From Methylococcales bacterium (GTDB lineage Bacteria; Pseudomonadota; Gammaproteobacteria; Methylococcales; Methylomonadaceae), in the NCBI GenBank assembly GCA_003584895.1, contig QVQF01000080.1, positions 1 through 44,694 of the forward strand: 44,694 nt of DNA. The letters run 5' to 3'. A program made the translations under genes and the position numbers. Under the pieces are notes generated by a model that saw nothing but the letters and a program-made list of their open reading frames with translations, was not told where the DNA came from and did not search any database. The stretch's first letter is position 1. Each line of letters starts with the position of its first letter. Of this stretch, positions 4,708 to 10,546 are shown in pieces.

Positions 4708-5013
4708 ATGCCAGATATAACTATTAATCTCCAACAGATAATCTTACTTAGTCAGTCTATGCTAAAAAAAGCAAAGAATGAGTCTTGGAATGATGTTTTT
4801 GTTTTGGAAAAAGACCGGCGTAAGCTAATCAATATTTTTCTTTCAACCGTTGTTAAACCAGAGCATGAGCAAAAAGTCGCCGAGGGCATTGAATCAGTGA
4901 TAGCAATAGATAAAGAAATTATGACATTAGGACAATTAAAAAAGCTTGATCTTACACAAATACTACAAACAATGGGGCAAGGGAAAAAAGCAGTTAAAGC
5001 CTATACATCATAA
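4708..5013 (+). CDS. FliT-like flagellar chaperone or regulator
   Basis: A 101-residue, highly charged, probably all-helical soluble protein. The N-terminal pattern, with a hydrophobic helix (ILLSQSMLKKAKN), a tryptophan (SWNDVF) and LEKDRRKLI, matches the FliT family, which are small export chaperones for the filament cap protein FliD or regulators of flagellar expression. It lies 76 bp after cheD on the same strand and converges on the PLP-enzyme gene. FliT normally sits beside fliD and fliS, so this placement is unusual. Assignment rests on sequence pattern and context, not on a search. Confidence 0.6.
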   Translation: MPDITINLQQIILLSQSMLKKAKNESWNDVFVLEKDRRKLINIFLSTVVKPEHEQKVAEGIESVIAIDKEIMTLGQLKKLDLTQILQTMGQGKKAVKAYTS

Positions 5014-5016
5014 GTT

Positions 5017-5039
5017 ATAATTTTTTACTTTAAAATTAT
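5017..5039. terminator. A+T-only stem-loop between convergent genes
   Basis: ATAATTTT and AAAATTAT form an 8-bp inverted repeat with a 7-nt loop. T-rich stretches lie on both strands, and the repeat sits exactly where the fliT-like gene and the minus-strand PLP-enzyme gene converge, overlapping the stop codon of the latter. A weak bidirectional terminator is plausible, but the stem has no G-C pairs. Confidence 0.3.
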
Positions 5040-6514
5040 GCTTTGAGCATAGGTAATAACTGAATTAGTAAGGCTATTTTATCCAAAACCGATAATGCAC
5101 CATCAATTATCGACTGGTCGTTATTTTCTTCTAAGGCTGCTTCTACAATTAGCCTAGAACTGATACATAAACGCAAAGCACTAATTTTTACACCATTACG
5201 TTTTCCACATGCAACCGGCTGCCCTGTTTGACAGCGTAAACTTGCAATAGCCGCATGATGATCTTGTAAACTGAAGCACTCATTGTTGATAGAAACGGCG
5301 AGTTGCTTATAAATAATCAAGGTTTCTTCGGCAGTTAATGGAGTTCTATCGATATCAGCATGATAAAGCAAGAATGGAAAAATAGTCTGAAGTTGATCCC
5401 AACTATGCTCCACCATCATTGGACTACGATCTATTTTTGGTACAGGTAATGGCTCAAAAGAAGCATCTTGTTGTAATCGTTGACGTATAGCTGAAGTAAA
5501 GTCTTGAATAAAAGTAATAATGTATTTTTGAGGTATAGAACGAAACAATTTAAGTTCTTGTAAAGCGACTTCCCAGCGTAATAATAAACCAAAGTTAGCT
5601 GTTTGAGATGAGTTATTGTTTAAAGTTTTGTTGGCAACTTCTAACTCCCTGCTCAATGCTGATTTAAAGAGTATAGCTCCAGAAAAAGAGGGGCCTGTTA
5701 AAAACTTTGATCCCGTTAACGCAATCATAAAACCACAATCAAGATAAGCACGTAATGTTAGCGGCGCTACACGAAATTGACAAGCATCAATGAGCACATC
5801 AATTTTATCTTTATATCGCTGGTGCAAATCTAAAACGCAACTAAGACTCGGTGTAATCAATCCAGTCTTTGATTGATCTGTTACTATGAGCAATACCCGT
5901 CGATTTGTAACAATGGCTTCAGTGACCAAAGTTTCAACGTCTTCATCAATAGTTGTTATTGATCTAAGCTCACCATCCTCTAAACGAACCTTCACAGACA
6001 TTACATCGTTTAGCTCACAATGGTTACCATTACTCAATGCCGCACTGACGCCTTTTCCAGTTTCGTTGGCTTCGATCATGATTATTCGTGGTGCTAAATT
6101 GTTTTCACGCCCTGCATAATGGGAAACTAGGCTATGAATATCAGTGCCTGAAGCTGAAAATATCACGCCAGTTGTTTCTGGAAGATCACATAGCTGTATG
6201 AGCTCTTCACTAATACGCTTTATTTCATAGCTATAGATTATTGATGCAGATTCTGTTTTAAGAGCTGTTACTAATCGTTGTCGTAACTGGTCTGCATAGT
6301 GATAACCTTGAGTAGAAATAATAGAGGCTGTAGATGACCCATAAGCTAACATATCAGGATCAGGAAAAGGTCTACAACCATATTGATTAATGCCACTGAT
6401 AGCCTCTAAAGCAATACGCGCGTCTCCTCCTGTTGTTAAACATTGAGCAGTATCAGATAGCATTTCTTCTGGAATATAAGTCATGCCTTCAGGATGAGAG
6501 TAGTTGGTTTTCAT
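5036..6514 (-). CDS. PLP-dependent enzyme of fold type I, class V aminotransferase-like, function unknown
   Basis: A 492-residue protein with the marks of a fold type I pyridoxal-phosphate enzyme: a glycine/serine phosphate-binding segment FSASGTD (about 119-125), the cofactor-nitrogen aspartate in LIDACQ (Asp243) and the probable Schiff-base lysine in TGSKFLTGPSFSGA (Lys270). The DACQ and SK pairing resembles the DxAQ and SxHK motifs of class V enzymes such as kynureninase or cysteine desulfurase, but the N- and C-terminal regions are not ones I recognise. The reaction cannot be named. It is the last gene of a three-gene cassette, starting 2 bp after the ATP-grasp gene ends, so translation is probably coupled. 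No signal peptide or membrane segment is seen. Confidence 0.7.
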   Translation of the reverse strand: MKTNYSHPEGMTYIPEEMLSDTAQCLTTGGDARIALEAISGINQYGCRPFPDPDMLAYGSSTASIISTQGYHYADQLRQRLVTALKTESASIIYSYEIKRISEELIQLCDLPETTGVIFSASGTDIHSLVSHYAGRENNLAPRIIMIEANETGKGVSAALSNGNHCELNDVMSVKVRLEDGELRSITTIDEDVETLVTEAIVTNRRVLLIVTDQSKTGLITPSLSCVLDLHQRYKDKIDVLIDACQFRVAPLTLRAYLDCGFMIALTGSKFLTGPSFSGAILFKSALSRELEVANKTLNNNSSQTANFGLLLRWEVALQELKLFRSIPQKYIITFIQDFTSAIRQRLQQDASFEPLPVPKIDRSPMMVEHSWDQLQTIFPFLLYHADIDRTPLTAEETLIIYKQLAVSINNECFSLQDHHAAIASLRCQTGQPVACGKRNGVKISALRLCISSRLIVEAALEENNDQSIIDGALSVLDKIALLIQLLPMLKA

Positions 6515-6516
6515 AA

Positions 6517-7740
6517 TTAATGAGTTATAGCGTTAAGCAGCATATGTCGAAAAGATTTAAATACTTTAAGCATTTGTGTTTGCTTATAAGGAAATAGTTC
6601 GACAGAATCAAGGGCATGTACAATCATACAACTATCTACTTCAAAAATAAGTAACTGACCATCAGATGTTTCGCCGCAATCTATACCTAAATAATCCAAC
6701 CCAATACGTTTATTAATATCCGAAAAAGCATGCGCATGTCGAAGTGCAAAATTATTGTCGAAAGCCGCCATAACGGCAGCCTCCTCCGCACGCTTTTCGG
6801 CACTTTCGGCCATACCTGCATTAAGGTAATGAATCATCCAATGTTCAGAGATAGCTAAATGACAAAGAAATGGCTGCCCGTCTATTAATACAATACGATA
6901 TTTTCTAAATAGGCCGTCTTGCCCTCGATAATCAATAAACCGTGAAATATAGAACTCACCATTTGTATGCTCTTGTAAATAATATTGCAGGGCGATAGCA
7001 TCGTCTATTTTATCAAGACCATGTCCAGCATGAGAATCAACGGGACGCACAATAATAGGATAATTATCGTCAACAAGAACATGCTCAAGTGCTAACTCTT
7101 GATTAGCTATTTTTTCTAAGTGTTGCCTATCTAAACGCACAGTGCTGGGCATACTGACACCAGGAATATCTTGTAGACATTCGCAGGCTTGATTACGCGA
7201 TAATAGAGCGATGCGGTCTGGCATATTGAGTATTGGCTTAGGCCAATTGATAATGGCGGCAGTAATAGCTTTCAATAATGACATATTCTGCTCAGACTGA
7301 GCAATTGCCACAAATAACACATCATGTTCAGGAAGTTCCCCGGGCGCTGGCAAGGCCCTATCTTCTGTTACATAAACTAGATGCAATAAAACATCTGAAT
7401 CTTCTAAGAGAAATTCTAATGGCGTATTTGCCATGAAATCGCCTGCGCTTAGAATGGCACACACGCGAAGAGAGATTGATGTACTGACTGTAGGTTGAGT
7501 ATAAACTTGTTGGCAGGCTATTGCTTCGGATTGGGTATGAAGAGCTAGATCACGGTTACCTCGTAATAGCAAAACCATAGCCAAATCCATTAAGGAATTA
7601 GCGCTAGCATCAGTTTCTACATTCTCTATTAATTGTGCGCCTAAGGGCGCTAGATCTAATCCAGAAAAAGCCATGCGCATAAGTTTAGCAAGACCAATTA
7701 ACGGCGCTTTTTTTGCTTTGACAGAGGCTATCTCACTCAT
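6517..7740 (-). CDS. ATP-grasp ligase with helical N-terminal region, function unknown
   Basis: A 407-residue protein. The first 80 or so residues contain a TPR-like helical pair (LMDLAMVLLLRGNRDLALHT). A central region follows (HDVLFVAIAQSE, PILNMPDRIALLSRN), and the C-terminal half is an ATP-grasp fold of the RimK/glutathione-synthetase type, with YPIIVRPVDSHAGHGL for nucleotide binding, FRKYRIVLIDGQPFLCHLA, and the metal-binding end LDYLGIDCG and LLIFEVD. ATP-grasp enzymes join a carboxylate to an amine or thiol through an acyl phosphate. Substrates are unknown, but a decarboxylase next door could supply an amine. The start codon overlaps the stop of the upstream decarboxylase gene (ATGAGTGA), indicating translational coupling. 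I recall this family as widespread but uncharacterised in proteobacteria. Confidence 0.72.
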   Translation of the reverse strand: MSEIASVKAKKAPLIGLAKLMRMAFSGLDLAPLGAQLIENVETDASANSLMDLAMVLLLRGNRDLALHTQSEAIACQQVYTQPTVSTSISLRVCAILSAGDFMANTPLEFLLEDSDVLLHLVYVTEDRALPAPGELPEHDVLFVAIAQSEQNMSLLKAITAAIINWPKPILNMPDRIALLSRNQACECLQDIPGVSMPSTVRLDRQHLEKIANQELALEHVLVDDNYPIIVRPVDSHAGHGLDKIDDAIALQYYLQEHTNGEFYISRFIDYRGQDGLFRKYRIVLIDGQPFLCHLAISEHWMIHYLNAGMAESAEKRAEEAAVMAAFDNNFALRHAHAFSDINKRIGLDYLGIDCGETSDGQLLIFEVDSCMIVHALDSVELFPYKQTQMLKVFKSFRHMLLNAITH

Positions 7741-9208
7741 TTTTTTCCTGTGACAATGATGACTTTAAAGTGTTTTCTATGACTTCTCCGAAGGCTAATG
7801 TCGCTTCAATTAAAGCATCAATATCACTGATCGTAATCCGATGATTAACAATAGCTGCACGAATAGCCAGTTGACCATGCAGAGTGGTTGTCGAGGGCGC
7901 AACAATACCGGATTCTTGCAAAGCAATGACAATTTCTGCATTAATAAAATTAGGACTTAAACATCGATAACGAAAGCAAACTATATTGAGCTCAACAGGC
8001 GCTAAAAGTTCTAATTGTGGATTAAGTTCTATGCGTTGTTTTAAGTATTGGGCTAGAGCACAGGTATTTGAGATAACCTGCCCCAACTTTTCAGGGCCAT
8101 AGACTTTTATAGTAAACCACGTTTTAAGCGCCCTAAAGCCTCGTGATAGCTCAGGCCCTAAATCGCATGGCCACGGAGAACCTGCAGATAGCCCTCGCGT
8201 TTCTCGGCTTAAATACGCAGCTGGCGTAGAAAACGTATCTAGCTGTTGCTCGCCGTTTCTGACTAGAATAAATCCTGCATCATAAGGAACCTGCCCCCAT
8301 TTATGAAAATCGAAAGCGATAGAATCGGCACGTTCTATGCCTTGCAAACGCGGTGCAAGATCGGGTGCTAATATGGCCAAGGCACCGTAAGCACCATCAA
8401 CGTGAAACCAGAGATTCTCAAGTTGAGCAAGGTCTGCAATTGCGGGTAAAGGGTCAATAGCGCCCACATCAACCGTGCCTACAGTTGCCGCAATAAAGAA
8501 AGGTGTAAGTCCAGATTTTTTATCAGCACCAATAGATTTAGCTAAAGCAGCGACATCCATTTGGTAGTTTTCATTAATTGGAATCATACGCAAAGCATTA
8601 CTGCCAATACCCGCTATATCCATAGCCTGGGCAATACTGATATGAGCACTTTCCGAGGTATAAGCAACCAATTGTAGACCTGAATTAACTAAGCCTTCTT
8701 TTCGAATAGATTTTTCTAAGCAAGCAGTACGAGCAATCAGCACGCTAATTAGATTAGCCATAGAGGTGCCGGTCACAAATAGACCATTGGCTGTTTCTGG
8801 AAAAGAAAATAGCGATTTAATCCATTGCAGCAATTGTTTTTCAAGCTCAATAGGTGCTTGATCACGACCACCTACATTTGCATTCAAACCAGCAGCTAAC
8901 ATGTCTGCCAGCATTCCAACTGGTGTTCCACCGCCATGAACCCAGCCCATAAAACCTGGATGGGTATTCCCTACCGCATAAGGCAATATGGTTTTCATGA
9001 AAGTAGCATGTACCTCACCAAGATTACTAGGATCATTGGACAAGGGCTGTTGAAAAATCTCTCGCTGTTCGGATGATAAGCCTTGCCAAACGGGTTGCTC
9101 TCGTAATTGCTCAAGGTAATTAAACATATCATCTAGCATGTCGTGGCCTTGCTTACGAAAACTAGGCCAGTCGTCTGGATCTAATGTATTTTCAGATGTT
9201 TTAAGCAT
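7733..9208 (-). CDS. Group II PLP-dependent decarboxylase (aromatic amino acid decarboxylase family)
   Basis: A 491-residue cytoplasmic enzyme of the family containing aromatic-L-amino-acid, histidine and glutamate decarboxylases. Visible hallmarks are HPGFMGWVHGGG near the N-terminus, FVTGTSMANLISV for the PLP phosphate, a ring-stacking histidine in SAHIS (His189), the aspartate in FHVDGAYG (Asp271) and the Schiff-base lysine in FDFHKWGQVPYDAG (Lys303). Length is normal. The substrate cannot be read from sequence. It is the first gene of the three-gene cassette and starts 99 bp downstream of flgL in the same direction, so it may be read from the flg operon or from its own promoter in that gap. 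The gap contains a 12-bp palindrome (CTAAAATTTTAG, 9240-9251) but no clear sigma-54 site. Confidence 0.88.
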   Translation of the reverse strand: MLKTSENTLDPDDWPSFRKQGHDMLDDMFNYLEQLREQPVWQGLSSEQREIFQQPLSNDPSNLGEVHATFMKTILPYAVGNTHPGFMGWVHGGGTPVGMLADMLAAGLNANVGGRDQAPIELEKQLLQWIKSLFSFPETANGLFVTGTSMANLISVLIARTACLEKSIRKEGLVNSGLQLVAYTSESAHISIAQAMDIAGIGSNALRMIPINENYQMDVAALAKSIGADKKSGLTPFFIAATVGTVDVGAIDPLPAIADLAQLENLWFHVDGAYGALAILAPDLAPRLQGIERADSIAFDFHKWGQVPYDAGFILVRNGEQQLDTFSTPAAYLSRETRGLSAGSPWPCDLGPELSRGFRALKTWFTIKVYGPEKLGQVISNTCALAQYLKQRIELNPQLELLAPVELNIVCFRYRCLSPNFINAEIVIALQESGIVAPSTTTLHGQLAIRAAIVNHRITISDIDALIEATLAFGEVIENTLKSSLSQEKNE

Positions 9209-9307: not shown

Positions 9308-10546
9308 TCAATTTATGTAATTAAATAAGGATAATTTATTTACTTGAGAATAGGCTTGTTGTGACGCTTGTAAGGCTACTGATTGAAGATTTAAGCTACT
9401 AATAGCTGCAGCTTCATCAACATTTTGTACTGATGATAAGGCTGTTTGCATATTGATTACAGCACCTGAGTTAATAGTGCTTTGCATCGTCAATGTATTT
9501 AATCGTCCACCAACGACCGCATTGATGGACAATATTTGGTTAGCTCCCTTAGTAATATCGCCTAAAGAAGCTTGTAGCAGGCTGGTGCTCGTTGTTGTAG
9601 CGACTGTTAAACCGGTGTTTGTTGTATCACCAGCTATAGCAATATCCGCTCCAGTCTTATTAGATAGCGTTATAGCCCCTGTAATAGGGTCTGAAATCGC
9701 AGTTACGCCAGTGCTGCCAGTTAATAAGTTAATGGCGGTAGCGACACTAGTGCCTTGAGTGACAGCATTAGCAATAGGCGGTATTGAAGCTAATTGTGAA
9801 GCAGGAGCTGCCATTGCAGGGATGGTAACCCCATTAATAGTAAAAGCATTGGTAGCCCCCAATACAGTTTGCGCGCTACCCTTAACAGGATTAGTGGTTA
9901 GAGTCGTAACAAATTGATTAATCGCTTCAAAAATATTATTAACCGATCCGGCTGTAGGCACTGTCGCAGGCGCAGGCCCAGTCGGTGCCCCGAAAACGCT
10001 ATTACCAGGATCGCCATCAGCAACTGAGGTATTGGTACCCACCTGAATGGTGCGCTGAGCTGAATTACCCGAGTAATCATAAGCACCTGGATTACTTGGA
10101 TCTTGGCTAAACGGCGGCGTGGTGCTTTTTGTTCCAGAAAATAAATATTCACCATTGACGTTTTGGGTATTGGCTACGCTGACCAATTGTTGATTCAATG
10201 ATTGTATTTGAGCAGCAATAGAGGCTTTATCATCTGCATTATTAGTGCCATTCATACCTTGAACACATAAGGCATTAATTTGATTTAATAAACCGCTGGC
10301 ACTTTGCAAACTCGAATTTTCCATAGACAGGCGTTGCGTAGCAGCATCATTATTCGTTTGATATTGTTGCGTCTGGCTAATGCTCTGCGTTAAATTATTA
10401 ATATTAACGGTAGCAGCGGGTCCATCAGAAGGCTGTAAGGTTTTTATACCTGTAGAGACTTCGGTCTGAGTTTGTTGTAACTCTGACTCCTGACTAATAA
10501 TGGAACTAACCGCGGTTTGTTGACCCCATGACGATGAAATTCTCAT
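9308..10546 (-). CDS. flgL: Hook-filament junction protein FlgL
   Basis: FlgL (HAP3) is the second junction protein between hook and filament. The N-terminus (MRISSSWGQQTAVSSIISQESELQQTQ, shown here only in part by its role) has the flagellin-like heptad pattern, with ISTG-type STGIKTLQPSDGPAA and NGEYLFSGTK. The C-terminal helix ends in ALQASQQAYSQVNKLSLFNYI. At 412 residues it is longer than the enteric protein. The extra length includes a flagellin IN-motif-like domain at about residues 233-315 (AFTINGVTI, ITLSNKTGADIAIAGDTTNTGL). It follows flgK by 7 bp and is the last recognised structural gene of the flg operon. Confidence 0.93.
   Translation of the reverse strand: MRISSSWGQQTAVSSIISQESELQQTQTEVSTGIKTLQPSDGPAATVNINNLTQSISQTQQYQTNNDAATQRLSMENSSLQSASGLLNQINALCVQGMNGTNNADDKASIAAQIQSLNQQLVSVANTQNVNGEYLFSGTKSTTPPFSQDPSNPGAYDYSGNSAQRTIQVGTNTSVADGDPGNSVFGAPTGPAPATVPTAGSVNNIFEAINQFVTTLTTNPVKGSAQTVLGATNAFTINGVTIPAMAAPASQLASIPPIANAVTQGTSVATAINLLTGSTGVTAISDPITGAITLSNKTGADIAIAGDTTNTGLTVATTTSTSLLQASLGDITKGANQILSINAVVGGRLNTLTMQSTINSGAVINMQTALSSVQNVDEAAAISSLNLQSVALQASQQAYSQVNKLSLFNYIN

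Follow-up and report, generated by a model that had tools for sequence, protein, structure and literature searches.

What might three tightly packed genes for enzymes dependent on pyridoxal 5'-phosphate (PLP) or ATP be doing inside a flagellar locus? The question is raised by contig QVQF01000080.1 of a Methylococcales bacterium (assembly GCA_003584895.1), of which positions 1 to 44,694, all 44,694 nucleotides, form the window analyzed here. The cassette lies on the minus strand and is composed of DEC, a group II PLP decarboxylase family protein of 491 amino acids (aa) encoded by the first gene (7733..9208); ATPG, an ATP-grasp ligase of 407 aa (6517..7740); and PLP5, an unclassified fold-type-I PLP enzyme of 492 aa (5036..6514). 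All three genes are intact; DEC and ATPG overlap by 8 bp, and a 2-bp gap separates ATPG from PLP5. The tight packing described in an earlier note on this DNA is thus confirmed on the open reading frame (ORF) coordinates. Comparison across genomes shows a conserved unit with ATPG as its constant member and with recurrent flagellar neighbors, and the function that we tentatively favor is the amide decoration of a flagellar component.

The three genes are conserved as a unit. A single scan of genome contigs, with short peptide patterns taken from the protein in the window, yielded 76 loci with an ATPG relative, a set that favors close relatives because of the patterns used. Both DEC and PLP5 accompany ATPG in 51 of these loci (thresholds of >200 bits for DEC and >80 bits for PLP5, with L095 included on partial ATPG and PLP5 matches), DEC only in 5, PLP5 only in 3, and neither in 17; the contig ends at the place of the missing gene in L040, L053, L074, L075, and L087. 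The order DEC-ATPG-PLP5 on a single strand is found in all 51 trio loci. L035, from Methylobacter tundripaludum SV96, also carries the trio. Five two-member in-frame ORFs were detected (DEC-ATPG in L031, L066, L077, and L079; ATPG-PLP5 in L068), and the trio is reordered to ATPG-PLP5-DEC on a plasmid of Rhizobium tumorigenes and again on one of R. rhododendri, the PLP5 of which is much diverged (27 to 28% identity). Tree distances among the three proteins correlate at 0.90 to 0.92 over 50 loci, but 3 to 8 conflicting supported splits appear per comparison, indicating that inheritance has been mostly, not wholly, joint. The ratio of nonsynonymous to synonymous substitution rates is 0.08 to 0.23 against L020, L022, and L023. 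The closest relatives are in methanotroph-lineage bins (Methylococcaceae, Crenothrix); cassette-type operons occur in methanotroph, Gallionella-type, Burkholderiales, and rhizobial genomes, and the distribution is patchy, with ATPG on seven plasmid records.

Within the cassette, ATPG is constant and its partner exchangeable. In a sample of 369 genomes of the class, the ATPG profile at an E value of 1e-20 matched 15 genomes, ten with at least 378 bits and five with 86 to 185 bits in matches that cover the ATP-grasp domain incompletely; these five were set apart as other families. The DEC profile at an E value of 1e-100 matched 17 genomes, eight with at least about 785 bits and nine with 340 to 644 bits; the bit scores that divide strong from weaker ATPG and DEC genes were set after the gaps in the score lists were visible. 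Each of the eight strong DEC genes lies within 90 bp of ATPG (directly upstream in G215 and G326, which were checked), and all nine weaker relatives are in genomes without strong ATPG. The neighbor of ATPG in the ten strong-ATPG genomes is DEC in eight and a serC paralogue in two (G309 and G067). Seven serC-ATPG pairs were found in total (L081, L084, L086, L089, L099, L108, and L110), and a serC paralogue is present in 4 of the 17 loci that have neither DEC nor PLP5. This phosphoserine aminotransferase paralogue, PRK12462, replaces DEC and PLP5 beside ATPG in the seven loci, and two of three tested proteins exceed the cut-off of the phosphoserine transaminase model NF009112; unlike the window's PLP enzymes, it is a class-V aminotransferase of known type, and it is absent from the window. 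The exchange of DEC and serC beside the same ligase suggests that both would supply the amino partner. A link to the serine pathway through a serA neighbor was dropped, as serA was seen only in R. jaguaris, the ATPG neighborhood of R. tropici giving no match.

PLP5 is scarcer: it is present in 2 of the 369 class genomes, both carrying the trio, and its relatives occur on 34 plasmid records, rhizobial in every case. At two of three inspected places, on conjugative plasmids of Sinorhizobium and Rhizobium, PLP5 homologues with about 38 to 39% identity (L096:6968-8503 and L097:6971-8467) stand directly after giant nonribosomal peptide synthetase (NRPS) genes with terminal thioesterase domains; the third homologue, in L100, does not follow NRPS genes. 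Co-linearity at 51 of 76 loci, the two-member ORFs, the reordered Rhizobium trios, the correlated trees, and the invariable position of strong DEC beside ATPG together support a single pathway for the three genes. One pathway was what the earlier note had read from the packing, and the survey of trio co-occurrence that it recommended has now been run and strengthens this part, whereas the joining of an amine by the ATP-grasp enzyme is something we infer. The note had named unlinked occurrence of the three families in relatives as grounds for giving up the idea, and this is seen only in part, in the nine weaker DEC relatives, the 17 ATPG loci with neither DEC nor PLP5, and the NRPS-adjacent PLP5 homologues.

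Physical linkage of the cassette to flagellar genes is frequent. Genes on a strict flagellar list, which omits generic families (FliI, FlhF, FleN, FliA, FlhB, Mot, and others), are found in the flanks of 29 of the 76 ATPG loci, and by inspection these neighborhoods are of about ten kinds (flgL/fliT, flgB, flgN/flgA, fliE, fliJ/fliT, fliS-fliC, GGDEF-fliC, flaG-flgL, ycgR-fliK, and others). Among 39 control stretches taken from genomes with ATPG, only one contains such a gene (ycgR). The difference has a Fisher p value of about 1e-5, but relatives are not independent, and the controls, which were picked by hand (40 chosen, 39 existing), had a lower mean length than the cassette loci and were searched under a different database-size setting. 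Cassettes lie near fliC in L104, L105, and L108, and in L111 a lone ATPG is separated by 120 bp from a flagellin ORF downstream. This last ORF (L111:9999-14174) is itself very long, at 1391 aa; flagellins of more than 900 aa are also encoded in L031 and L043.

Flagellin-type genes are present in nearly all ATPG-bearing genomes: Flagellin_N has a match in 48 of 50 such genomes. These 50 were chosen from the 76 loci; 45 have DEC, 41 the trio, and 5 no DEC (L027, L052, L081, L084, and L086). In the class sample, all ten strong-ATPG genomes have a Flagellin_N match, against 200 of 369 overall (p = 0.002); the corresponding counts are 6 of 7 genomes with ATPG against 5 of 28 without it in the window's genus (p = 0.002) and 7 of 8 against 22 of 53 among all relatives (p = 0.018). 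The seventh ATPG-bearing member of the genus, G025, lacks a Flagellin_N match, and there fliT adjoins the cassette (L021). L052 is a metagenome bin labeled Klebsiella pneumoniae, a label that may be wrong; its ATPG is without DEC and PLP5, and its genome has no Flagellin_N match. The flagellar location had been treated in the earlier note as background; the cassette does lie in a flagellar locus, but the recurrence of that location was missed. In the window, the gene immediately upstream of DEC is of the flagellin type and has the same orientation; it is named flgL by place and size (9308..10546; an ORF with a Flagellin_N match at G000:C7:10127-10525). The flagellar chaperone gene fliT (4708..5013, plus strand; PF05400, 46 bits) is convergent with PLP5; both flank the cassette from outside.

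The proteins themselves indicate the kind of chemistry. DEC belongs to PF00282 (234.6 bits; curated cut-off, 27), a family whose enzymes decarboxylate amino acids to amines; the solved sequence closest to DEC is the tryptophan decarboxylase of R. gnavus. The NCBIfam matches of DEC all fall short of the respective cut-offs (the best, RhbB, gives 190.2 against 900), including those to the named equivalogs DABA, PanP, MfnA (98.7 against 299.4 bits), TyrDC, HDC, and GAD. Residues H189, D271, and K303, which we take to be the PLP-binding His, Asp, and Lys, are invariant in 32 of 32 aligned sequences. A Tyr missing from a loop of DEC was not used as the mark of a different reaction, as four other solved decarboxylases are likewise without it. 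ATPG has four helices (residues 17 to 76) followed by a domain with the ATP-grasp fold (91 to 407), the nearest folds to which are RimK and LysX/ArgX, enzymes that lengthen protein C termini. D354, E367, and S236/G239 are kept in 54 of 54 sequences, and the third metal-ligand position is Asp in 49 of 54 but Asn in RimK; these are presumably the acidic metal ligands and the glycine-rich loop. ATPG differs from the RimK/LysX/ArgX enzymes in its extra N-terminal helices, in its gene partners, and in its score of 21.4 bits against the RimK family TIGR00768, below the curated cut-off of 143.4; it also gave no match to ATP-grasp_4/PF13535 in a Pfam search. PLP5 has the fold of a fold-type-I PLP enzyme, with the motifs Asp243-Ala-Cys-Gln246 and Ser269-Lys270; it matched no Pfam family at an E value of 0.01, the class-V aminotransferase family PF00266 included, and no NCBIfam model.

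Several loci depart from the common layout. A nucleotidyltransferase/HepT-like pair of the toxin-antitoxin type is found between DEC and ATPG at L056:7136-7946 and L057:5728-6541, and an L-PSP family gene occupies the place of PLP5 in both loci (the L057 proteins were tested; L056 is assigned via shared clusters). At L027:5401-7481, ATPG stands alone after a cytochrome c assembly gene, which is the cassette site in other Methylobacter relatives, and neither DEC nor PLP5 has a match in the stretch examined. On a Cupriavidus plasmid (L120:5971-7220), the ATPG copy is divided between two genes annotated as hypothetical, and flgB and glycosyltransferase genes are annotated nearby. Distant ATPG homologues with 27% identity are encoded at L018:865-2577 and L019:1453-3186, in genomes that also have strong ATPG; the one in L018 is a tetratricopeptide repeat-ATP-grasp protein and is followed by a gene for a CRP-family regulator. 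A PADLOC search at an E value of 0.001 gave no match for the cassette, and a defense system was rejected on that basis.

What, then, might the pathway make? The best single reading, to which we give somewhat less than an even chance, is that an amine or unusual amino acid produced by the cassette becomes attached through an amide bond to a component of the flagellum or to the glycan on it. DEC, together with PLP5 where present, or else the serC paralogue would supply the amine or unusual amino acid; ATPG would activate a carboxylate with ATP and join it to the amine as an amide, with the N-terminal helices of ATPG as a possible docking site for partner enzymes or a protein substrate. Coupling of carboxylate to amine via an acyl phosphate is described for ATP-grasp enzymes in the excerpt of PMC8141765 that we consulted. 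The product would be carried by flagellin or by a different protein of the filament or hook, either directly or via a glycan, and the decoration may tune swimming or the surface chemistry of the filament.

Two flagellin modification systems provide precedents. According to the available portion of PMC3765264, the sfmABCDE operon of Shewanella oneidensis modifies flagellin and encodes a predicted ATP-grasp carboxylate-amine ligase, SfmE (SO_3265), deletion of which shifts the flagellin mass. In the type B modification of Clostridioides difficile flagellin, the glycan is capped at its end by a group that contains taurine, alanine, and glycine, and this cap requires the ATP-grasp gene CDR20291_0245 (PMC5207246 and PMC5207245, both in excerpt). 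The partners differ, however: NeuB-like, TPP-enzyme, reductase, and methyltransferase genes are found in sfm, which has a predicted FliA site before the operon and, within that portion of the source, no described decarboxylase or PLP5, whereas the C. difficile system uses glycosyltransferases and an ornithine-cyclodeaminase-like protein, none of which are in the cassette. Because SfmE and CDR20291_0245 belong to ATP-grasp_4 and PF13535, which ATPG does not match, they serve as analogies and are not shown to be homologues.

A number of observations weigh against flagellar decoration. No strict flagellar gene is found in the examined flanks of 47 of the 76 loci, where many contigs are short, and 2 of the 50 ATPG-bearing genomes have no Flagellin_N match. 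Flagellin_N also matches FlgL, and several matches are weak, so that some genomes may count on FlgL alone; related genomes, moreover, are not independent samples. Among the five weaker ATPG-like class matches, Flagellin_N is present in two, and pooling them with the strong ones gives 12 of 15 (p = 0.034). Control by sigma-28 (FliA) is not supported: 1 of 70 cassette upstream regions scores at least 9 against 0.9 expected, although this score is reached by 12 of the 13 rows upstream of flagellin genes (two being repeats of one locus). For sigma-54, 9 of 70 cassette regions reach 9 against 3.8 expected, and known flagellar operons score hardly higher (7 of 41 rows). Searches of the window's genome for PF01973 (MptE-like/Maf) and PF03102 (NeuB) gave no match; no nonulosonic-acid glycan that the cassette could decorate was thus identified, and such a flagellin glycan was rejected for this genome. 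The PLP5 relatives beside NRPS genes point to small-molecule chemistry. This last point, the lack of sigma-28 enrichment, the 47 loci, and the absence of a glycosyltransferase gene inside the cassette also speak for the reading that ranks next, which is possible and would have a free small metabolite (a signal, chelator, or protectant) made and released, the flagellum being left unmodified and the genes sitting in flagellar loci to serve motile cells or for regulatory convenience. Convenience, however, would not lead one to expect linkage in so many different flagellar neighborhoods or co-occurrence with flagellin-type genes in 48 of 50 genomes, and no transporter in the window belongs to the unit.

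The remaining explanations are less probable. Incidental linkage, by which a metabolic operon spreads horizontally, inserts into flagellar clusters, and persists in motile bacteria, would suit the plasmid-borne copies, the patchy distribution, and again the 47 loci, but it is unlikely in view of the excess of linked loci over control stretches and of the way in which ATPG tracks flagellin-type genes within the genus. ATPG might alternatively be a RimK-like enzyme that adds amino acids, supplied by the PLP enzymes, to the flagellin C terminus, as its nearest folds would allow. ATPG misses the RimK family cut-off, however, and 14 of 17 complete flagellin rows (one locus being represented twice) have the ordinary end ...LLR, with an acidic tail in none; such tailing was rejected on these C termini and is very improbable. 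We give the least credence to a pathway of the methanofuran/methylofuran type, in which DEC would be an MfnA-like tyrosine decarboxylase, ATPG a tyramine-glutamate ligase like MfnD (itself an ATP-grasp enzyme), and PLP5 an MfnC-like aminotransferase. The closest relatives, in methanotroph-lineage bins, would fit such a pathway. The enzyme types are the same, the MfnA/MfnD/MfnC set also combining a PLP decarboxylase with a ligase and a transaminase, and the consulted excerpt of PMC8141765 states that a tyramine-containing form exists in bacteria and that PF00282 genes have been proposed for methylofuran. The cassette hosts, however, do not follow the tetrahydromethanopterin pathway, its enzyme Mch being found in just 18 of the same 50 ATPG-bearing genomes of which 48 have flagellin-type genes, and DEC is far under the MfnA cut-off.

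It is conceivable, although we advance this with reserve, that a modular, previously undescribed flagellar modification system exists in Proteobacteria, in which a RimK-like ATP-grasp core is combined with alternative amine suppliers (a dedicated PLP decarboxylase with or without PLP5, or a dedicated phosphoserine aminotransferase) to yield lineage-specific amide decorations; no description of the cassette was found in the open literature among the matches listed, which does not establish its absence from print. Such a system would extend the chemistry of flagellar decoration beyond the usual sugar and methyl types. It would also explain an unannotated operon of methanotroph, Gallionella-type, Burkholderiales, and rhizobial genomes, and it would give PLP5 its first biological context.

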